In this document: in pieces, positions 1 through 59,862 of the stretch
Layout of the letters: each line of letters starts with the position of its first letter
Position numbering within the stretch: position 1 is the first letter of the stretch
Origin: Bacteroidota bacterium
GTDB lineage: Bacteria; Bacteroidota; Bacteroidia; Chitinophagales; UBA8649
Assembly: GCA_002862745.1 (NCBI GenBank)
Contig: PKDX01000016.1
Coordinates: 1 to 59,862 of the forward strand
Reading direction: 5' to 3'
Length of the DNA stretch: 59,862 nt
The notes under the pieces: generated by a model
Database searches by the model: none
Told to the model about the DNA's origin: nothing
The model's input: the letters and a program-made list of their open reading frames with translations, nothing else
Translations under genes and position numbers: made by a program

Positions 1-3000
1 ACATCGATGAAGTTTTGTCCTGTAATACCCACTGGTGCATTGGATTCTGGTGCATTGGTCCAATTGTATAGCAATCCACCAGTTGCCGTTAACGTCAATG
101 AGTCACCTAGACAAATTGCTGTATCAGGCGTTAGGCGCTGTGATGATGGTCCATAGTAGATGAAGATGCTATCACTAGTCGAGCATGATGTGCCGCTCGC
201 CGTAACGGTAGCTATGTACCAATCTCCTGCAGCTGGACCGTTTGGTGCCGAAGGATTCACTTGATTTCCTGGAGAAACATAGGTCGTATCTCCAAGAATT
301 GGAAAGAAGCTAAACGGTTGCGTTTGCGCAGACCATGCAACGTCAAAGTTTCCACAACCAGCTCCAGAGCAACCGGTTTCTATCGAAATATTATCTAGCC
401 CCCAATCATCATTGATACCTGTGGAGTGTGATGGTTGGAACCATCGAATGATCGTATTTGGCGTTTGGGCTCCAGCCGGAATTGGATAGGTGAAGAATTG
501 GGTGAAGTTTGTCGCTCCTGTGGCTATCGAATAATTATCGATTTCAATCCAGGTAAGACCGCCATCAATAGAATATTGAAGGACTGGAACCTCAGTGCTT
601 TCGTAAGCATTTTGATATCCCGCATAGAAATCAAATTCTAAACTACCTCCATTGGATAAGTCTAATGGAACAGTCTCGAAGAAACGCGCAGTACCCGAAG
701 TACCCTGCGTGGCGTGAAGGGCGTTGCTCACACCATTAAAGCCATCAATAATGACGTTAAGCGTGTTCCCCCAAATAGCGGGATCAATTGATCCAGACTC
801 CCAATCTTCAAGAAATCCAAAGGTGTCAATCACTTGAGTCGTTAAAAGAAGTGGAGCACCTCCACAATACACTGTTGAGTTTGTTCCTGTGAAGAAACTT
901 ATACTTGGTGGAGCAGCACCATTAACTACAACGGTAGCCGTATCATAGTTTCGACAACCATTGGCAGACGTTATCTCTAAGGTGTAGATGTAAGTCGAGT
1001 CGCTTACACTTGGAGTCGAGCTTGGATTGGCAATAGAATCAGCATCTAACTCGCCTGTTCCGCCCCATGCAAAAGAATAAGGACCCGCTGCGATGTCCGC
1101 CACGACATTGAATTGAACTGTATTGTTTAGACAAATCGTGTCTTCAGACTGACTTAACGTGTAATTGAAATCGGGACCCACATTTACAAAAAGATCTTCT
1201 TGTGAAGAACATGTTGTTCCGATAGGTGTCACGGTTACAGTGTACGTGGTAGGCGTTGATGCGCTTACAATTGGATTGGCAATTGTTGGATCGCTTAATC
1301 CTACTGCGGGTGACCAACTGTATTCAAATACTCCACATGCTGGCCCACAGCATCCTGCGGAAATTGTAACATCATCAATTGCCCACTCATCACAGCTTGT
1401 ACATGCGCTGAATTGGATCTGCGCAAATCTGAACTGAGTAGAGGAAGTTTGTGCAGCCGCTGGGATGGGCTCAGAGAAAAACTGGAAGGCAGGGTTGGTC
1501 TCCCAGAGCGCCTCATCATAGACGGCAATATCTACCCAAGTCGCTCCTCCGTCAATTGAGTACTGCAGGGCAACATTTTCCCCGGCATCCGCATTTTCAC
1601 ATCCAGAACCTGAAGTGGACGAACTACCCATGATGAGCCAAAAGTCGATGCTTCCGCCAGACGATGCGTCAATCGGGAGGGTTTCGGCTATACGATCTGT
1701 TCCAACGCTTGTTCCACCATCAAAATGTAAAGCATCACCTGAAATAGAACCGCAATCTCCATTTAAGTCATAGGAAGTCACGTTGGCCCAAATACTTGGG
1801 TCAAATCCACCATCGAAGTTATCCGACAAGGTCACCCCAACACAAGGCGTTGCTGTGATTTCCACACTGTCGCCTTCACAAATGAAAGGATAGCCATCAA
1901 ACTCTATGCGCGACGGAGCCTCTCCTGCCACAAATACATTAAAGCTGTCAGCAACCGCACAGTTATTTGCGGCAGTGATAAGCACGTTGTATGAATTTGT
2001 TCCATTGGCAGTAGGTGTAGCTACTACAGAAGCTGCATCATTGACGTCTAAGTCTGCATCAGGAGACCAGTTATAGGTGTAGTTTGATCCTGAAGTTGGA
2101 TTGACTGTCAAGTTAACCGCCTGGTTTCGACATACCGTATCATCACTTTGTGAAAGGGTGTAGGTGAATCCAGGTACTACGTTTACATCAATTGTATCTG
2201 TCGCAGAACAAGTCGTTCCTTGTGGGGTAACAGATACTACATACTGAGTGCTAACATTTCCTGTGAATACAGGTGTTGGTGATGTAGGATCATCTAGTCC
2301 GGTAGCTGGAGTCCATAGATATTCGTAAACATTTGCTTGAACATAAGGAATGAAGCTCCATGCATCATTTGAAGCGCTCCAGTCTGAAGCATTTCGATTA
2401 GGAACGGGAGCTCCATCAACTGGATCGACCAAGGTATTGTTTTGAATTCCTTGGGTCATATTGCCACCATCATTAATGATGTCTGAAGAAATAATATCAA
2501 TGACACCTGTTCCTTCATAAAGGATGATTTGACCGGTTACGCCTAGGCCACCGCCAAAGTGAGGAACGCCACTGTAGTCAATGATGAAGCGTCTATTAGG
2601 CGCACTTCCTTCAATACAGTAAGAAATAGTTCCACCACTGTTGGGATTTAGATCATTCCATGCCAACGCGATGAGATTGGTTGGGTCGAAGAGACTATTG
2701 TCAACGTATAAATCCTCACCAGTACAACAACCACTCGCTGAACCTGGGTTAAAGGTTACGAAACCGTTAGACGACACATAGATGTCGGTGTACGTGCTTC
2801 CGTAAAAGAGGAACGGAAATCCAATGGGTATTGCTGCACTTACCTGATCATCAGAAAGACTGAGTGTAGTAGGAGAGGTACAGGCTACAGGGGCATAAGG
2901 AATCGGTGTGACAACATATTGTCCTGAAGCAGGAGGAAGTACCTGGGTGAAAAGGTTCAACGAGTCTCCAGCACACAGGGTAGTGTCATTGGACGAGTTG

Positions 3001-4292
3001 ATGATTGGTTGACTTCCCGAAACAACAATTTCAACCGTATCAAAGACATTGCAACCATCTGTCGATGTGACTTCAACCACATAGGTAGTTGTTGAGGCAG
3101 GCGAGGCAACAACACTTAACGAAGTAGCATCATTTAATCCTGTGGCCGGTGTCCATTGAACACTGCCAATTGGGATGGAGGATGGACTAGGAACCGCAGT
3201 TAATGTTGTCGTACCAAACAAGCAGATTGTATCATCAGGAATTGGTGCGAGATTAATCGCGGGTACCACATCCACAAGTACACTATCCTCACCACAGGCT
3301 GATGTCATGGTATAATAAATATCGTTCGCAGGAAACACAGTAGGTGTTAAGGTGTTGGCATTGATAATATCTTGGTTTGGAGTCCAAACTACATTGACTG
3401 CTCCACTACCCATTAGCATTTCACCTGGTCCTGTAGGATCACACGCTGCGATTACAGGAGGTCCTGCATCTGTGGGATTCATAGTGTAGGAGACAGTATC
3501 CGAGCAGGTATCGGAAAGACCGTTTGTGTAGTATACAACTATTGTGGAGTCAATCGTAGGAATCATAACTCTTGTATTGGTATCTCCAACGAGTGGGTCA
3601 TCCCAATAATAAAAGTAGGTACTATCATTTCCTGTAATTTGAATATTATCCAATCCCCAGTGGTCAAATCCTGACCCAGAATCAGAAGTTTGAATCCATC
3701 GAATTTGAGTATTCGTAGTCCATGCTGCTGGTGGAAGGGTAAAACAATAATTTCCCCATGAAGTAAATCCACAACCCGCTTGGCCTCCACATCCATTGGT
3801 GTCTGGATTGAAGTAGTCAATGGTTACCCAGGTATTCCCGTTATCAGTACTGTACTGAAGAAATACTCCTTCGTCAGGTAAATCAGGCCCTTCACATGGT
3901 GCTGCCTCACTTTGAATAGCCATCCTGAGATCAAAACAGATAAGGGCCCCTTGGCTCGTATTGAGTCCATTTGTTGTCAAAGACCGTGGAACAGAAGCTA
4001 GGTCTCCCATCCACAAATGTGGATCATTAGCGCCAGATGGACCTGGTCCACAAGGGTTGGAGTATACCGCCTGCGAGGTGGTTTGCCAGTTTGTGTCAAG
4101 CGGCCCAGCAGGTCCGAATAACTCAATGACAAGACCTTGGCCATATCCTGCAGCTGAAAAGGTTATGGTGTCTTCACAATCTACCTGTGCAGAGGACGAA
4201 CTTGTAAAAAGATCAACGATACAACCTTGATTTTGAGCGGTAGCTGTTGAGGTCAGCAGTAAACAGCTAAGTATAAAAGAGAGATGTTTCAT
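1..4292 (-). CDS. giant secreted adhesin with Reelin-like and PKD/Ig-like modules (partial, C-terminus outside window)
   Basis: The minus-strand frame stays open from an ATG at 4292 to the left edge, giving about 1,430 residues without the C-terminus. It begins with a signal peptide (MKHLSFILSCLLLTSTATAQ). At least three modules share the pattern 'LQYS.D.G..W..I' followed 40-60 residues later by 'W.(I/L)D(N/D)(I/V)', which resembles Reelin subrepeats; they lie near 3.6-3.9, 1.3-1.7 and 0.4-0.7 kb. Between them are Ig/PKD-like repeats with 'YTLSQS.DT.C' and 'TY.VTVTP.GT.C' signatures. A section near 2.3-2.9 kb has a nidogen-like 'FPFLFYGSTYTDIYVSSNG' motif. Expected to be exported by T9SS and act as a surface adhesin; the sorting domain must lie beyond the window. 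It is 24 bp downstream of a small secreted-protein gene and probably shares its transcript. Module names are from pattern recognition only. Confidence 0.85.
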   Translation of the reverse strand, partial: MKHLSFILSCLLLTSTATAQNQGCIVDLFTSSSSAQVDCEDTITFSAAGYGQGLVIELFGPAGPLDTNWQTTSQAVYSNPCGPGPSGANDPHLWMGDLASVPRSLTTNGLNTSQGALICFDLRMAIQSEAAPCEGPDLPDEGVFLQYSTDNGNTWVTIDYFNPDTNGCGGQAGCGFTSWGNYCFTLPPAAWTTNTQIRWIQTSDSGSGFDHWGLDNIQITGNDSTYFYYWDDPLVGDTNTRVMIPTIDSTIVVYYTNGLSDTCSDTVSYTMNPTDAGPPVIAACDPTGPGEMLMGSGAVNVVWTPNQDIINANTLTPTVFPANDIYYTMTSACGEDSVLVDVVPAINLAPIPDDTICLFGTTTLTAVPSPSSIPIGSVQWTPATGLNDATSLSVVASPASTTTYVVEVTSTDGCNVFDTVEIVVSGSQPIINSSNDTTLCAGDSLNLFTQVLPPASGQYVVTPIPYAPVACTSPTTLSLSDDQVSAAIPIGFPFLFYGSTYTDIYVSSNGFVTFNPGSASGCCTGEDLYVDNSLFDPTNLIALAWNDLNPNSGGTISYCIEGSAPNRRFIIDYSGVPHFGGGLGVTGQIILYEGTGVIDIISSDIINDGGNMTQGIQNNTLVDPVDGAPVPNRNASDWSASNDAWSFIPYVQANVYEYLWTPATGLDDPTSPTPVFTGNVSTQYVVSVTPQGTTCSATDTIDVNVVPGFTYTLSQSDDTVCRNQAVNLTVNPTSGSNYTYNWSPDADLDVNDAASVVATPTANGTNSYNVLITAANNCAVADSFNVFVAGEAPSRIEFDGYPFICEGDSVEITATPCVGVTLSDNFDGGFDPSIWANVTSYDLNGDCGSISGDALHFDGGTSVGTDRIAETLPIDASSGGSIDFWLIMGSSSTSGSGCENADAGENVALQYSIDGGATWVDIAVYDEALWETNPAFQFFSEPIPAAAQTSSTQFRFAQIQFSACTSCDEWAIDDVTISAGCCGPACGVFEYSWSPAVGLSDPTIANPIVSASTPTTYTVTVTPIGTTCSSQEDLFVNVGPDFNYTLSQSEDTICLNNTVQFNVVADIAAGPYSFAWGGTGELDADSIANPSSTPSVSDSTYIYTLEITSANGCRNYDTATVVVNGAAPPSISFFTGTNSTVYCGGAPLLLTTQVIDTFGFLEDWESGSIDPAIWGNTLNVIIDGFNGVSNALHATQGTSGTARFFETVPLDLSNGGSLEFDFYAGYQNAYESTEVPVLQYSIDGGLTWIEIDNYSIATGATNFTQFFTYPIPAGAQTPNTIIRWFQPSHSTGINDDWGLDNISIETGCSGAGCGNFDVAWSAQTQPFSFFPILGDTTYVSPGNQVNPSAPNGPAAGDWYIATVTASGTSCSTSDSIFIYYGPSSQRLTPDTAICLGDSLTLTATGGLLYNWTNAPESNAPVGITGQNFID

Positions 4293-4316
4293 AGTTTTTC
4301 GTAGAGGTTGTTAGCC

Positions 4317-4730
4317 TTATTTTAATTCGATGTTGGTGAACTTGAGGTCGGTTAATGTGCTGTGATTATCTAGATCTAGATGCTTATTGAACACGCGCAA
4401 GAAAGGCTCAGATGTCTCGCACGTACCGGTAATTGTTTCTAAGGGGCTCAATATTATGGAATGATGTAATCCGTTGTCTTCATTGTTGCATGATCGGCAT
4501 ACCCCATTTCGATATTTTTCCAGGTCGAAAAATATTGTAACCTCTTCATTTGTCTTGTTTTCAAAAGTTACAAGAGCATATGATCGATGCATTCCATTGG
4601 CTATATCGTGGCAGTCTTGTAGCTCATAGGAAATCTTATAGTCGTTTGTTTCTACGACACTTTCTTGAGCGATAGCCGGTTGAAGTAAAATAGTTCCAGT
4701 TAAAAGCAGGGTAAATATGGTGTAGCGCAT
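4317..4730 (-). CDS. small secreted hypothetical protein
   Basis: A 137-residue protein with a clear signal peptide (MRYTIFTLLLTGTILLQPAIA then QE). The mature part is about 115 residues with five cysteines (DCHD, CRSC and GTCE among them), suggesting a disulfide-bonded beta-rich domain. The wording 'ALVTFENKTNEEVTIFFDLEKY' reads like an Ig-type fold that describes no family I can name. It precedes the giant adhesin gene by 24 bp on the same strand, so co-transcription and a helper or partner role on the surface are possible but unproven. No function assigned. Confidence 0.7.
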   Translation of the reverse strand: MRYTIFTLLLTGTILLQPAIAQESVVETNDYKISYELQDCHDIANGMHRSYALVTFENKTNEEVTIFFDLEKYRNGVCRSCNNEDNGLHHSIILSPLETITGTCETSEPFLRVFNKHLDLDNHSTLTDLKFTNIELK

Positions 4731-4833
4731 AATGTTTTATTCCTTTTGAAGATAGGGTTAATGGCCAAAATAACCTAATGTTTTTCAATTGATTACTCAA
4801 TAATTACAAAATCTCTAATTGATTAAAATTCTT

Positions 4834-16148: not shown

Positions 16149-16159
16149 CTTTGAGTTTG

Positions 16160-16245
16160 CGGAGAGACCGAGACTCGAACTCGGGCATCGCTATTAGACG
16201 ATGACGGATTAGCAATCCGCTGCATTACCACTCTGCCACCTCTCC
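16160..16245 (-). tRNA. tRNA-Ser(GCU)
   Basis: The minus strand folds as a class II tRNA of 86 nt. The acceptor stem is GGAGAGG with TCTCTCC plus discriminator G, the T-stem is CCGAG / CTCGG around loop TTCGAGT, and the anticodon stem-loop GGATTGCTAATCC presents anticodon GCT. A long variable arm (TCATCGTCTAATAGCGATG region) fits tRNA-Ser. The 3' CCA is not encoded; the sequence continues CAA. It is followed by its own terminator. Confidence 0.95.
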
Positions 16246-54388: not shown

Positions 54389-54670
54389 CTAATCCTTGAG
54401 GTACTTCGCTTCGAGGTAAAAGGTGCCAAAAGGAACTAATGATGCTAAAAAGACCATAACGCTAAAACCAATCTTCCATTGGTACTGTATCGCGCTTGAC
54501 AGCCCTACAGCGCAGTAGAGAAGAAACAATAGGCCGTGCGCCATACCAATATAGAAATTAGGTTCAGGCATAGCATAGAAATGCTTTAATGGCATAGTTA
54601 TTCCAAACAGAAGCAAGAAGCTTATTCCTTCAAGTATTGCGATGTATCGGAATGTCTTTAGCAAGGTCAT
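54389..54670 (-). CDS. DUF3817 family membrane protein
   Basis: A 93-residue protein with three hydrophobic segments. The DUF3817 pattern is clear: 'EGISFLLLFGITMPLKHF', 'GMAHGLLFLLYCAVGL' and 'ASLVPFGTFYLEAKYL'. Members of the family are small integral membrane proteins of unknown role. Convergent with the SGNH-like lipoprotein gene (6-bp gap). Confidence 0.85.
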   Translation of the reverse strand: MTLLKTFRYIAILEGISFLLLFGITMPLKHFYAMPEPNFYIGMAHGLLFLLYCAVGLSSAIQYQWKIGFSVMVFLASLVPFGTFYLEAKYLKD

Positions 54671-54955: not shown

Positions 54956-55125
54956 TACTTCGTTTTTAGAATGTTAAAATATATTCCTGCGCAGAGTATA
55001 GGTGCAACCCATTGTCCAACAAATATGGACTTCTCAAAATCTCCTGAGAAATAGAAGTATTCTGAGAAAACAAGGCTTACCAACGCTGCTCCTATTATAA
55101 TTAAGTTTGATTTGGAAATTTTCAT
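54955..55125 (-). CDS. small membrane protein, upstream partner of the 64-residue protein
   Basis: A 56-residue protein starting 'MKISKSNLIIIGAALVSLVF' with two hydrophobic segments (residues 8-21 and ~35-51) separated by 'SEYFYFSGDFEK'. Not recognised. It ends in a TAA that overlaps the ATG of the next gene (TAATG), good evidence that both are real and co-translated. Confidence 0.5.
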   Translation of the reverse strand: MKISKSNLIIIGAALVSLVFSEYFYFSGDFEKSIFVGQWVAPILCAGIYFNILKTK

Positions 55126-55189
55126 ACGCTAAATGTAGACAATTTTCCATTGAATTGATTGTCAAGGTTTTGTGAAAATAAGTAGGAAG

Positions 55190-55212
55190 CCAGGTAGGAT
55201 TGCTCGCGCCAT
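55190..55212. repeat. degenerate copy of the tRNA-3'-end-like repeat
   Basis: CCAGGTAGGATTGCTCGCGCCAT matches 21 of 23 positions of the copy at 56371-56393. It lies between the two small membrane-protein genes and the esterase gene. It may be an older, decayed attachment site. Confidence 0.6.
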
Positions 55213-55262
55213 TTTTTTTTTATGTTTAAAAAAAGAAATATCTTCCACATTATTCTTTTCAT

Positions 55263-56330
55263 ATGACAAATAAAATATTATTACTGATTTTGCTTTTCCC
55301 CCTTTTCCCCCTTTTCTCCATTGCTCAAAATCAGGAGACTAGGACAATAAATTATGATGGTGAAATTCGAGAATATATAATCTATGTTCCATCAATTTAT
55401 AACTCGTCAAATCCAACTCCTTTAATGTTTAGTTTTCATGGTGGAGGTGGAGATGGCCAAGGGATGATTGGTTTAAATGATATGAGACCCATAGCCGATA
55501 CTGCAAATTTTATTGCCATTTATCCATCTGGTGCTGATGGTGCATGGATGCACAAAGTTCCGACGACATACAATGACATTTATTTTGTTGAAGCAATCAT
55601 AGATGCTTTGAGTATTGAATTTAATGTAGATGATGAGAGAATATATGCCTGTGGTTATTCTGAAGGTGGCATTTTTACCTACGAACTCGCTTGTAGGTTA
55701 AGTAATAGAATTGCAGCTGTCGCCTCAGTGTCGGGCTCAATGATGACTGATACTTACAGAAATGACCCAGCTCCTAATGGCTATGGTTTCCCTGTATGTT
55801 CGCCCTCTCATCCCACAGCGATAATGTTTATCCCTGGTACGATTGATATGAATCCTCACTCAATGTATAATGGGCTTAGTCCATATTATATGTCTGCAAG
55901 TGAAATTTCAACGTACTGGTCTGCTCAAAATAATACCAATTTGTCTCCTACAGTTAATCCGGTCCCTGATGTAAATACTTCAGATGGCAGCACTGTTGAA
56001 AGGAGTGTTTGGGAGGACGGAGATAATTGTGTTCGCGTAGAGGAGTTAAAAGTAACGGGAGGAGATCATGACTGGCCAGGAACTTTTGGTAATATGGATA
56101 TTAGTGCTAGTAATGAGATATGGAACTTTGTCTCTAAATTCGATATCAATGGATTAATTGATTGTAATTCGGGTAATCCTACAAGCAATTATGGAATTAT
56201 TGATTTTCAGAATAGAAACGTACTGGAAGTAACGGATATACTAGGAAGAAGGACAAAGGAGCTAAAAAATATTCCACTCTATTATCATTACGACGACGGA
56301 ACGGTTGTGCAAAAAATAATTCTTGAATAA
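55263..56330 (+). CDS. secreted esterase of the PHB-depolymerase/feruloyl-esterase type
   Basis: A 355-residue secreted alpha/beta hydrolase. Signal peptide ending 'LFSIAQ'; then 'YIIYVPSIYNSSNPTPLMFS' and 'FHGGGGDGQGM' (oxyanion region), the nucleophile elbow 'CGYSEGGIFTYELA' (Ser in GYSEGG, where most relatives have GxSxGG), and 'VTGGDHDWPG' with the catalytic His. It resembles LpqC/feruloyl esterases that cleave esters on polysaccharides or polyesters. The C-terminal ~50 residues ('VLEVTDILGRRTKELKNIP') look like a short Por-type sorting tail. It lies between two copies of the tRNA-3'-like repeat, and so may belong to an earlier insertion. Confidence 0.85.
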   Translation: MTNKILLLILLFPLFPLFSIAQNQETRTINYDGEIREYIIYVPSIYNSSNPTPLMFSFHGGGGDGQGMIGLNDMRPIADTANFIAIYPSGADGAWMHKVPTTYNDIYFVEAIIDALSIEFNVDDERIYACGYSEGGIFTYELACRLSNRIAAVASVSGSMMTDTYRNDPAPNGYGFPVCSPSHPTAIMFIPGTIDMNPHSMYNGLSPYYMSASEISTYWSAQNNTNLSPTVNPVPDVNTSDGSTVERSVWEDGDNCVRVEELKVTGGDHDWPGTFGNMDISASNEIWNFVSKFDINGLIDCNSGNPTSNYGIIDFQNRNVLEVTDILGRRTKELKNIPLYYHYDDGTVVQKIILE

Positions 56331-56332
56331 AC

Positions 56333-56365
56333 ATCAACTCGCTAATTAAGCGAGTTGATTATTTA
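56333..56365. terminator. terminator hairpin between the esterase gene and the first clear tRNA-3' repeat
   Basis: ATCAACTCGC / GCGAGTTGAT is a perfect 10-bp stem with loop TAATTAA (56333-56359), followed by TATTT. It should end the esterase transcript. On the other strand it lies just past the tRNA-3'-like sequence, the normal place for a tRNA terminator. Confidence 0.75.
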
Positions 56366-56393
56366 GTGACCCAGGGAGGATTGCTTGCGCCAT
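56366..56393 (-). repeat. tRNA 3'-end remnant / attachment-site copy 2
   Basis: GTGACCCAGGGAGGATT (56366-56382) is identical to 56530-56546. On the minus strand it reads AATCCTCCCTGGGTCAC, the T-arm end and acceptor strand of a tRNA, with CCA changed to CTA. It continues as TGCTTGCGCCAT, shared with the copy at 55190-55212. Interpreted as the 3' end of a tRNA left by an earlier insertion. Confidence 0.6.
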
Positions 56394-56496
56394 CCTCTTT
56401 GCTCCAAATTCCGAAAAGAAAGTTTGATCGCTTGCGATCATTTTCTCTCTAATTTCAGTCCTCGCAGAAACGAGTTTCGCTCGGTTAGAAATTAAG
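56394..56496. other. short non-coding segment between two att-like copies
   Basis: No reading frame of note. It contains the perfect inverted repeat TGATCGC-TT-GCGATCA (56425-56440). Probably the remnant of a deleted element lying between the two attachment-site copies. Confidence 0.45.
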
Positions 56497-56520
56497 AAAG
56501 CCCACCATGCGGTGAGCTTT
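56497..56520 (-). terminator. hairpin next to the tRNA-3' remnant
   Basis: AAAGCCCACC-ATGC-GGTGAGCTTT pairs at 9 of 10 positions. It sits 7 nt from the encoded CCA of the tRNA-like remnant, as the terminator of tRNA-Ser sits close to its gene at 16 kb, and so looks like a tRNA terminator on the minus strand. T-rich sequence on both sides allows either direction. Confidence 0.6.
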
Positions 56521-56527
56521 CTTTTCT

Positions 56528-56548
56528 TGGTGACCCAGGGAGGATTCG
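56528..56548 (-). other. tRNA 3'-end remnant, probable attL of an integrative element
   Basis: The minus strand reads CGAATCCTCCCTGGGTCACCA: part of a T-loop (CGAAT), T-stem strand CCTCC, acceptor strand CTGGGTC, discriminator A and CCA. The sequence then changes abruptly (GGCC...), and no tRNA 5' half follows. This is what remains when an element integrates into the 3' end of a tRNA gene; the integrase gene begins 140 bp to the right. Confidence 0.65.
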
Positions 56549-56642: not shown

Positions 56643-56666
56643 AAAAACGCCCACAAAAACGCCCAC
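56643..56666. repeat. tandem 12-bp direct repeat upstream of the integrase
   Basis: AAAAACGCCCAC occurs twice with no gap (56643-56654, 56655-56666), followed by C. Tandem short repeats between an att site and an integrase gene often serve as arm-type integrase or excisionase sites; here they also overlap the integrase promoter region. Confidence 0.7.
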
Positions 56667-56686: not shown

Positions 56687-58015
56687 ATGATTAACGTTAA
56701 ATTCTATCTCAAGAGTAAACAATCGTATAAACCAGTTTCAGTAGTTGCGACAATTAGGCACAGGGGAAACAAAGTATCTCATGCAACAGGTGTAACCATT
56801 CACCCTAAACTATGGGACTATTCAAAACAATTACCCTTAGTGGCTTCAAAGGCACCAAAGGAGTTTAAGAGCAATCCATTTTTGAAAGAGGAACTTGATT
56901 CTAAACGTGTCCAACTTTCTTCTTTACAAAATGCGTTAATGAATGCGGTAAATACTCATCAGGCTTTTTTACTACGCGGAGAAGTTCCATATGAAAAGCT
57001 AAAAGCCCTTATTCTTGCTCATAGAGGCGATTCTAAAATGTTAAGGGATATAGTATCTAATAAATCAAAGACTCCTTACCTCTTGGAATACTGCACCACT
57101 TTTGTCGAAGGTATGTCAACAGGACATACGCTCAAGGATGATTCTAAACCATATGGACCTGGAACGATTCGTCAGTGGAAGTCATGGTTGATGAATTTCA
57201 AGCTTTTTGTTAATTCTAGCTTCAAGTACAATAGGCTAGAATTTAATGGTGTCAATCAAAACTTATGTGATGCCTTCGTTCATTTTTGCTACCACGAGAG
57301 AGGAATGGCTATCAATACGGCTGGTCGAATGGTTAAGAATCTTAAGGCTGTCATGCGGAGGGCACATAAACAGCAGTTACATTCCAATTTGGCATTTACA
57401 CATTTTAGGAAACCTACAATGGATAAGACAATTGTTGTACTGTCCTATGAGGAAGTAAAAATGCTCTATGACTTGGACTTAACAGGGTCCCCATGGGAAA
57501 AGTACCGAGATATATTCCTAGTGGGTTGCTATACGGCTCTTCGTGTTAGCGACTTATCAAGGATAAGCAAGGACAACCTTTTGTATGATGGTGAGTTCCC
57601 ATTTCTTACCATTAAAACAATGAAAACAAAAGAGGATGTGGCCGTTCCAATACCAAAAACGATTTGTTTGCCTATCCTTGAAAAGTATGATTACGGTTTG
57701 CCCAAATTCAGTTCTACTAAACTGAATAAGTACATTAAGCTTATTGCTAAGAAGGCAGGTCTAGATTATGACGTTAAAATCAGTTTTTCTGAGGGTGGGG
57801 AAGAAAAGGAAATTGCAGTACCTAAATACAAACTCATAGCCTCACATACTGCTCGTAGGACAGGGGCAACTATGCTTGTGTCTAAAGGAGTTTCCTTGAG
57901 CTTGGTTATGACTATAACGGGTCATAAAACAGAAGCTTCGTTACGCAGGTACATCAACGTTGATAAGAAGGAGCGTATGCGGGAAATGAAGAACAACCCT
58001 AAGCTCTGGAGTTAG
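56687..58015 (+). CDS. tyrosine recombinase (Bacteroidota-type site-specific integrase)
   Basis: A 442-residue tyrosine recombinase. Residues 1-95 are an arm-DNA-binding domain ('VKFYLKSKQSYKPVSVVATI', 'HRGNKVSHATGVTIHP'); residues ~130-240 a SAM-like core-binding domain; residues ~250-430 the catalytic domain. Catalytic residues are Arg286 ('TALRVSDL'), His387-x-x-Arg390 ('SHTARRTGA'), His413 ('TGHKTEA') and Tyr422 ('RRYINVD'). This is the normal integrase type of mobile elements that enter tRNA genes in Bacteroidota. It lies just right of an attL-like tRNA remnant, pointing into the window's right end. Confidence 0.95.
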   Translation: MINVKFYLKSKQSYKPVSVVATIRHRGNKVSHATGVTIHPKLWDYSKQLPLVASKAPKEFKSNPFLKEELDSKRVQLSSLQNALMNAVNTHQAFLLRGEVPYEKLKALILAHRGDSKMLRDIVSNKSKTPYLLEYCTTFVEGMSTGHTLKDDSKPYGPGTIRQWKSWLMNFKLFVNSSFKYNRLEFNGVNQNLCDAFVHFCYHERGMAINTAGRMVKNLKAVMRRAHKQQLHSNLAFTHFRKPTMDKTIVVLSYEEVKMLYDLDLTGSPWEKYRDIFLVGCYTALRVSDLSRISKDNLLYDGEFPFLTIKTMKTKEDVAVPIPKTICLPILEKYDYGLPKFSSTKLNKYIKLIAKKAGLDYDVKISFSEGGEEKEIAVPKYKLIASHTARRTGATMLVSKGVSLSLVMTITGHKTEASLRRYINVDKKERMREMKNNPKLWS

Positions 58016-58171: not shown

Positions 58172-59862
58172 ATGAGATGCTTTTGTTTCTTTCTGATTGT
58201 ATTAAGTTTTTTTGAGACATCGTTTTCTCAAAATAATATTAGCCTAGACCTTGGTGCAGATACAGTGAGCTTGTGTGATACTGCAACAACTCTTGACGCG
58301 GGTGCAGGCTATGGAAGTTATTTATGGTCGACAGGCGAAACAACACAAACCATAGATGTCGATTCTTCAGGGATGTATTCGGTGACGGTGGGGGATAATG
58401 CAGGTGTCGCAAACAACCACTCACTGAGTTTTGATGGGGTGGACGATTTTGTGGAAATGAGTAATTCATCAGTTTTTGATTTAACAACGTCATTAACTAT
58501 TCATTTAAAGATACAACCGGATCAGTATGTTACAACGCAAGGTCATGCAGCAGTTGTTTCAAAAAAGCCAAACAATGGCTGGGGAAGTGGATTTGAGATA
58601 ATGGTTCATCCGCCTTTAAGTGGCAGTAGTGCATATGGCATTGGAATAAACTACACAGATAATGGTGGTGACTATTCTTTTATCTATTATGATACATCAT
58701 TTGATGCTCAAAAATGGTATGATGTTGCTGTTACATACAATAGCACCCAGTTCTTGATTTACATTGATGGAGATTTAAAAGCAGTTCGCAATGGTTCAGG
58801 ATCTATTGGCCTAAACAGTGTGCCGATTGTCTTGGGAAGAAGAGCAGATACAACAGGTATTTACAGACATTTTTATGATGGTAAAATTGATGAACTAAAA
58901 ATTTGGAACACTGCCCTCTCTCAAAGTGAAATCCAACAATACATGAACTGCCCTCCTAAAGGGAATGAAGCAGGTTTAGTAGGTTATTGGAACTTCGAAG
59001 AAGGAACAGGAACAACCGCCAGTGACCTGACTAGCAATGGAAATAATGGAACCATTAATGGAGCTTCATGGTCTAATATTGTGTCTGTGCCTTCAGTTGG
59101 TTATCCATCAATGATTTTCAATGGTGTTTCAAATAATCAATTTGCGGAGTCGTTTAACCAAGCTAGTCAGATTTTCAACGGTGAAATAGACTTTACAGTT
59201 GAAACGTGGTTCAAGATGCCCCCTATTGATGCAGGAAATAACCTAAATCAATCAGGCTTAGGTAACGGTGCCATAATAACATCCTATAACAGGCTTTCGG
59301 GTGATGCTCTTTCAAATTTCACGCTAAATGTATCACCTGTTGGAACACCTAACGTTGGGAAGGCTGAATTCTTTACCTGTTATTCAAATTCTCGAGTTGA
59401 TGATAATCAGTGGCATCATATTGCAGCTATGTATGATGGGAATAACAATATTTCTTATCTATATGTAGATGGTATTTTAAATGATACCTTCGATCATACT
59501 CTTGATCTAACTCATAATCCTAATCGCACTTTAACTAACAATAGAATTAGGCTCAATAATTTCGCTCCTTTCCAAGGGCCTATTATGTTCGATTGTGAAT
59601 ACGCATCGGTTCAAATTTCTAAAGGTCTGAGATATAGCTCAAATTTCGAAACATGCCAACCTTCACTTGATTCAAATACACTTTTATTGTGGACGTTTGA
59701 TAACATAAATGGGAACGTTGTTTATGACCACAGTGTTCATCAAAATAATCTTCAACTTATAAACAATCCGTTATCTGGAAATAATGTAGACTTAGGTAAT
59801 TGTGCAATTTGTAATAGTTTTTCAAACTTTTCTGCGACGGATTCAGTATACGTAGACTTATT
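58172..59862 (+). CDS. secreted protein with LamG-like jellyroll domains (partial, C-terminus outside window)
   Basis: An open frame of 563 codons running off the right edge. The signal peptide ends near 'FETSFSQ'. Residues ~24-70 are a short Ig-like adhesion repeat ('LCDTATTLDAGAGYGSYLWS', 'GMYSVTVGDN'). Two LamG/concanavalin-like domains follow: 'HSLSFDGVDDFVEMSNSS' to 'DELKIWNTALSQSEI' (residues ~75-255), and 'MIFNGVSNNQFAESFNQA' to 'WHHIAAMYDG' (residues ~310-480). Each ends in or is followed by a 'WNFEEG' or 'LWTFDNING' motif typical of LamG proteins. Probably a large T9SS-exported adhesin or glycan-binding protein carried by the integrative element. Confidence 0.85.
   Translation, partial: MRCFCFFLIVLSFFETSFSQNNISLDLGADTVSLCDTATTLDAGAGYGSYLWSTGETTQTIDVDSSGMYSVTVGDNAGVANNHSLSFDGVDDFVEMSNSSVFDLTTSLTIHLKIQPDQYVTTQGHAAVVSKKPNNGWGSGFEIMVHPPLSGSSAYGIGINYTDNGGDYSFIYYDTSFDAQKWYDVAVTYNSTQFLIYIDGDLKAVRNGSGSIGLNSVPIVLGRRADTTGIYRHFYDGKIDELKIWNTALSQSEIQQYMNCPPKGNEAGLVGYWNFEEGTGTTASDLTSNGNNGTINGASWSNIVSVPSVGYPSMIFNGVSNNQFAESFNQASQIFNGEIDFTVETWFKMPPIDAGNNLNQSGLGNGAIITSYNRLSGDALSNFTLNVSPVGTPNVGKAEFFTCYSNSRVDDNQWHHIAAMYDGNNNISYLYVDGILNDTFDHTLDLTHNPNRTLTNNRIRLNNFAPFQGPIMFDCEYASVQISKGLRYSSNFETCQPSLDSNTLLLWTFDNINGNVVYDHSVHQNNLQLINNPLSGNNVDLGNCAICNSFSNFSATDSVYVDL

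Follow-up and report, generated by a model that had tools for sequence, protein, structure and literature searches.

The tRNA-Arg(TCG) gene of this Bacteroidota genome is probably an insertion hotspot, at which three layers of DNA would have been introduced by site-specific recombination, short gene-less units being possible minimal insertions. The window analysed here is a stretch of 59,862 bp that forms the entire contig C12 of the source assembly (72 contigs, 99% complete; in the following G000). To order the layers it was compared with two further species of the same genus, G001 and G002. All of these are metagenome assemblies, with breaks and possible misjoins at repeats. Copies of the tRNA 3' end in the window, an intact tRNA in the same genome, a G002 flank joined to the tRNA-mdh locus and an intact tRNA at the second junction in G001 are directly observed. 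Together these copies, the tRNA and the junctions in both congeners support the idea of the first-pass annotation, which was made from the window alone, that successive insertions took place at one tRNA 3' end.

The repeated sequence is the 17-mer GTGACCCAGGGAGGATT, which occurs exactly at 56366-56382 and at 56530-56546, where it had been annotated, and at no further site of the window when up to three mismatches are allowed. None of 100 shuffled sequences contained two matches. In the whole 2.06-Mb assembly, at up to two mismatches, the 17-mer was found three times, and the third site, the only one outside the window in this 99% complete genome, is the 3' end of an intact tRNA-Arg(TCG) gene (C21:1698-1772, minus strand). 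This gene adjoins mdh (malate dehydrogenase) and is the sole intact copy in the genome. An intact minus-strand tRNA beyond the window was thus present in the orientation predicted by the first-pass annotation, and a dispersed repeat unrelated to any tRNA is excluded.

The three copies in the window differ in their state of preservation. The third copy (56528-56548, minus strand), which reads CGAATCCTCCCTGGGTCACCA and forms the junction to an integrase element, is a tRNA end with encoded CCA. A terminator-like hairpin (AAGAAAGCTCACCGCATGGTGGGCTTTCTT, 56494-56523, minus strand) directly follows it and the 5' half of the tRNA is absent, as originally described; the window contains a single tRNA, a tRNA-Ser at 16159-16245. 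The second copy (56366-56382, minus strand) lies next to a separate hairpin, also anticipated, which is a two-way terminator-like structure at 56333-56359. The outermost copy is degraded, with 75% identity across 20 nt; aligned with the 56366 copy it has 78% across 37 nt. It emerged from the repeat families D1 and D2 and is located at 55185-55201 on the minus strand; its existence had been recognized correctly, while its start had been placed at 55190. Weak on its own, it is confirmed by its left flank, which corresponds to the sequence after the intact tRNA-Arg in G002.

This left flank (55092-55184) is native chromosomal sequence outside all insertions. It is 83% identical to G002:C18:1-94 and 89% identical to the flank directly after the intact G002 tRNA-Arg. 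A single G002 contig contains, in this order, the flank (C18:1-94, equivalent to 55092-55185 of the window), the degraded junction, at which the homology to the window stops, a scrap of an integrase, the rest of a 5.2-kb insert, a repeated part of the flank, the intact tRNA-Arg and mdh. The integrase remnant comprises 28 aa with 64% identity to residues 342-369 of the integrase in the window. The repeated part of the flank (CATTGACTTGATTGTCAATG...) leads into the intact tRNA-Arg, and the alignment at the outer junction shows that the flank is kept up to the tRNA end. As read from the assembled sequence, the G002 contig physically links the outer flank of the window to the tRNA-mdh locus, which in G000 is found on C21.

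The order of the layers follows from G001. Here a single alignment of 87% identity extends from position 54395 of the window to exactly 56382; beyond this point G001 has the intact tRNA, followed directly by the esterase gene described below when reading outward. The junction at 56382 implies that the esterase islet came first of all layers, that it predates the split of G000 and G001 and that the tRNA then stood at the site of the 56366 copy. The 164-bp unit and the integrase element are either later arrivals in G000 or were lost from G001. The G001 contig starts 65 bp before the tRNA, and its upstream end may be foreign, chimeric or rearranged, while the join of tRNA and esterase gene lies within G001-specific sequence. 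Positions 1-65 of this contig (G001:C165, L017) carry the end of a yqeY-like gene rather than mdh, and base 1 of the tRNA is C instead of G. A yqeY gene as the ancestral neighbour of tRNA-Arg was considered and rejected; it holds in G004 and fails in G000 and G002. At G003:C60 (L039, 1-75) the contig end coincides with the exact tRNA-Arg 3' end, as if the tail were repeated there too. It appears very improbable that faulty assembly of a genome recovered from a metagenome produced the repeats: C12 and C21 both end inside the element and the G001 contig end is odd, but the junctions agree across three genomes of the genus, and the copies in the window lie within one contig, each side being bounded by different sequence.

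The oldest layer, a 1.18-kb islet bounded by the copies at 55185 and 56366, contains a single open reading frame and no integrase. The gene (55263-56330, plus strand, 355 aa) encodes a secreted esterase-like protein with a weak alpha/beta-hydrolase match below the cut-off, and the two-way hairpin directly follows it. With att copies on both sides and no integrase inside, the islet has the make-up of a cis-mobilizable element (CIME), and in G001 the intact tRNA is found at its inner junction. The suspicion that the esterase gene is a remnant of an earlier element is supported by its G001 orthologue, which the intact tRNA directly adjoins. At the outer end of the islet (55202-55212, minus strand, repeat family D2) we found ATGGCGCGAGC, which is shared with the 164-bp unit: both have the common end ATGGCGCRAGC adjoining AATCC. 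Given this common end, the islet and the unit may be the loaded and the empty version of one thing.

The second layer is this 164-bp gene-less unit (56366-56529, minus strand) between the second and the third tRNA-Arg copy. The segment between the perfect copies had been taken for the remains of an earlier element. It is an earlier insertion layer indeed, but not a mere worn stump, since it consists of about 150 bp of the kind of gene-less unit that recurs behind other tRNAs. At its end a T-arm-like hairpin, GAGGAT-loop-ATCCTC, is located (56376-56397, minus strand; marginal alone, p 0.06). No second copy of the unit was found in its own genome and no match in phages. Among the relatives of the genus compared, no intact tRNA-Arg is followed by the unit.

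The third layer is an integrase-bearing element. Its tyrosine recombinase (56687-58015, plus strand; PF00589, PF13102, PF17293) starts 140 bp to the right of the third copy, as annotated, and covers positions 3-171 of 172 of PF00589, i.e. the complete catalytic domain expected of a genomic island, in addition to arm and core-binding domains. A cargo gene with laminin-G-like domains (58172-59860, plus strand) is cut by the contig end; since the window is the whole of C12, the element runs off the contig. The first-pass annotation had placed its beginning at about 56.55 kb and an intact tRNA at its far end past the window. In support of this, the 3' fragment at 56528-56548 and the intact tRNA at C21:1698-1772 flank the element in like orientation, both on the minus strand, in an order that is backed by G002, the gap between C12 and C21 remaining in the assembly. 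Between the integrase start and the junction there are two tandem copies of AAAAACGCCCAC (56643-56666, plus strand), which are candidate integrase arm sites. The motif is also present at C21:1618, near the other junction; over the initial 12 kb of that contig, this is the single site of the exact AAAACGYCCAC. Its presence near both junctions suggests putative arm-binding sites at the two ends of one element, a single match being not rare by chance.

Relatives of the integrase provided little further insight. The best segments in GTDB genomes matched the N-terminal part only, at 32-43% identity, and ARAGORN detected tRNAs in none of the 23 loci, which are therefore uninformative on site choice. 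Nearly all of these 23 distant relatives carry titles of Bacteroidetes or member groups, which together with the domains of the integrase suggests a host within the Bacteroidota. Viral contigs contained no relatives, phages only distant ones, and no solved structure matched the integrase by sequence. Part of the element appears to have moved recently: C21:490-776 (L004) is 96% identical to the G002 insert (L016, 169-457), compared with 83-87% for the common backbone. Such a difference is expected if DNA moves between species and suggests a recent transfer of part of the tRNA-Arg element.

Units resembling the 164-bp unit were sought by a survey in which the last nucleotides of each tRNA were searched downstream of it, using tRNA loci of about 3 kb from G000 and its relatives. 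Gene-less units of 157-181 bp that start with the last ~17 nt of their own tRNA were found in two genera, behind tRNA-Met, -Val, -Arg and -Pro; in two cases they form tandem pairs. In G000, downstream tail copies occur at +155 of tRNA-Met (exact), +142 of tRNA-Val (one mismatch) and +81 of tRNA-Ser (degraded). While the tRNA-Val of G000 has one unit, that of G002 has two tandem units of 157 bp. In G005, which belongs to another genus, tRNA-Arg is followed by a unit of 181 bp and tRNA-Pro(tgg) by two tandem units of 173 bp, one base apart, each consisting of the tRNA tail, a terminator-like hairpin and a hairpin-rich middle (G005:C60, L141). For the 73 tRNAs (93 kb) of the first three genomes surveyed, tail matches were located downstream only; neither upstream tail copies nor matches of a reversed-sequence control were obtained. 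None of the 15 tRNAs of G003 has a downstream tail copy. In G025, from another family, one of 34 tRNAs has one, of different make: downstream of this tRNA-Met (L182) lies a copy of the T arm and acceptor end whose T stem is interrupted by a 20-bp insert (ACTGCCTGCCGGCAGGCAGG).

The Met and Val units are 88% identical over 128 bp, which implies that the unit moved from one tRNA gene to another or was converted; the units of other tRNAs have no recognizable likeness to one another. An antisense reading frame common to the Val and Met units was dismissed, as by eye a frameshift breaks the frame of the Val unit in G002. The Val unit had no match in plasmids, and a search against Rfam returned nothing but tRNA above threshold. 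The tRNA-Met of G002 (G002:C5:49500-56500, L130, about 1391-4767) has no short unit; it is followed by an insert of about 3.3 kb and a displaced tRNA fragment of about 60 nt, and then by the common native flank. Beside this fragment a 180-aa open reading frame runs from an integrase-arm-like start, judged by eye, into a DUF3987 end, and seems to be a fusion left by a deletion within a decayed element. A literature search yielded no description of such units in other bacteria; with subscription papers mostly outside its scope, it is weak evidence of novelty.

The units share a nearly fixed starting point. Aligning the copies with their tRNAs, identity begins at the T-loop AAT (A58) for the 56366 copy of G000 tRNA-Arg, G005 tRNA-Arg, tRNA-Pro, tRNA-Val and tRNA-Ser. 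In the Met copy it begins one base before A58, with a loop A in place of G, and in the 56530 copy, i.e. at the integrase junction, two bases before A58. The rtT repeats of E. coli, known since the 1970s, behave alike: in the tyrT/tyrV locus of K-12 the copies start exactly at A58 with the last 19 nt of the tRNA and are arranged in tandem with periods of 175 and 178. The K-12 tyrT-tyrV spacer (L197, 1564-1695) is one rtT-type unit of period 175 that scores 132.9 bits with the RtT model. At the conventional E. coli islands argW, thrW and argU, the fragments start around C62 or extend to the anticodon rather than starting at A58; at leuX no fragment was found with the short cores used. This comparison is a small sample, made after the pattern had been seen.

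The near-constant A58 start bears on the possibility that the units are plain tandem duplications of tRNA tail and trailer, later homogenized by gene conversion without a site-specific enzyme. Arrays of near-identical units and repeats of 37-57 bp able to recombine fit such an origin, but it would have to produce almost the same start in unrelated units of different tRNAs in two genera and in E. coli, and to account for the relatedness of the Met and Val units despite their differing tRNAs. We therefore regard it as unlikely. A T-arm-like hairpin before every copy was also considered and had to be abandoned as a general feature: it is well supported for Val, Pro and Ser, but marginal for tRNA-Arg in the window, weak in E. 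coli and at chance level for G005 tRNA-Arg and for Met. With loops that range from 5 to 24 nt, which is atypical of a recombinase core, the hairpins are no more than suggestive (post hoc, combined p about 6e-4).

Alternatively, the units could be rtT-like repeats in the strict sense, i.e. structured RNA that is co-transcribed with the tRNA, retained because it functions as RNA and amplified through unequal recombination; the integrase element would then have severed the unit in the window from its tRNA. With 164 bp in the window, 157-181 bp for the related units and the A58 start, they agree in size, layout and starting point with units of about 175-178 bp that begin with a tRNA 3' end. The species-dependent number of tRNA-Val units and the several hairpins of each folded unit point in the same direction. 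However, no unit matched the RtT model of Rfam at E<=2, while the E. coli controls scored 133-138 bits, for which reason we do not file the units as rtT. Units of different tRNAs mostly have no sequence in common. In the Arg and Pro units the terminator-like hairpin directly after the tRNA end would hardly leave the remainder co-transcribed, which makes an RNA role less likely for these. Overall we consider this explanation rather doubtful.

Returning to site-specific insertion, each incoming DNA would bring a copy of the tRNA 3' end and insert at or near the T arm, leaving the tRNA whole and displacing the old 3' end outward. The esterase islet would have arrived first, followed by the 164-bp unit (56366-56530) and finally by the integrase element, which would begin near 56547, run off the contig and end at C21:1697, next to the intact tRNA. 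The integrase of the window presumably made the third junction, while by CIME logic layers 1 and 2 would be the work of integrases that acted in trans or have since been lost. The 157-181-bp units, which carry no gene, we take to be minimal att-flanked, recombinase-made insertions rather than random duplications, at about even odds; the Val and Pro arrays could instead have formed by unequal recombination. More tentatively, and with the chances rather against it, the gene-less units and the E. coli rtT may form one general class of tRNA-tail cassettes. These tiny elements would enter tRNA genes at A58 through a process of their own that is directed at the T loop, and would on occasion carry a gene, for instance the esterase.

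Compared with known systems, layer 3 is an ordinary tRNA-targeted integrase element and the order of three layers is ordinary tRNA-targeted accretion. To our knowledge, the rtT repeats have no accepted origin. The Islander catalogue holds tRNA-targeted islands with tyrosine integrases, among them 125 tandems of two or more, and drops candidates that are below 2 kb or lack an integrase (PMC4383910). With these islands the window shares the regenerated tRNA, the displaced 3' fragment, the integrase and the matching orientation; it differs by its two older layers of 1.18 kb and 164 bp, which have no integrase. Being shorter than 2 kb and without integrase, these layers are invisible to Islander, and the whole class of short units would escape it in the same way. 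CIMEs and tandem accretion have been described as att-flanked cargo without integration genes adjoining an integrase-bearing element at one gene (PMC5704250). By analogy, layers 1 and 2 resemble them in being att-flanked, free of an integrase and located beside an integrase element at one tRNA, while the 164-bp unit differs in having no gene at all. The locus provides a layered insertion record at a single tRNA gene, and comparison with two sister species gives its order. The rtT repeats of E. coli (Rfam RF00391) are matched in size, tandem layout and exact A58 start. In contrast to them, the units described here fail the RtT model, sit behind Arg, Met, Val and Pro tRNAs in two genera, carry in the Arg and Pro cases a terminator-like hairpin after the tRNA end, and have a like end in common with an islet that bears an esterase gene. 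The E. coli repeats thereby stand beside look-alikes with an A58 start in distant bacteria, and counting start points genome-wide would allow their origin to be tested.
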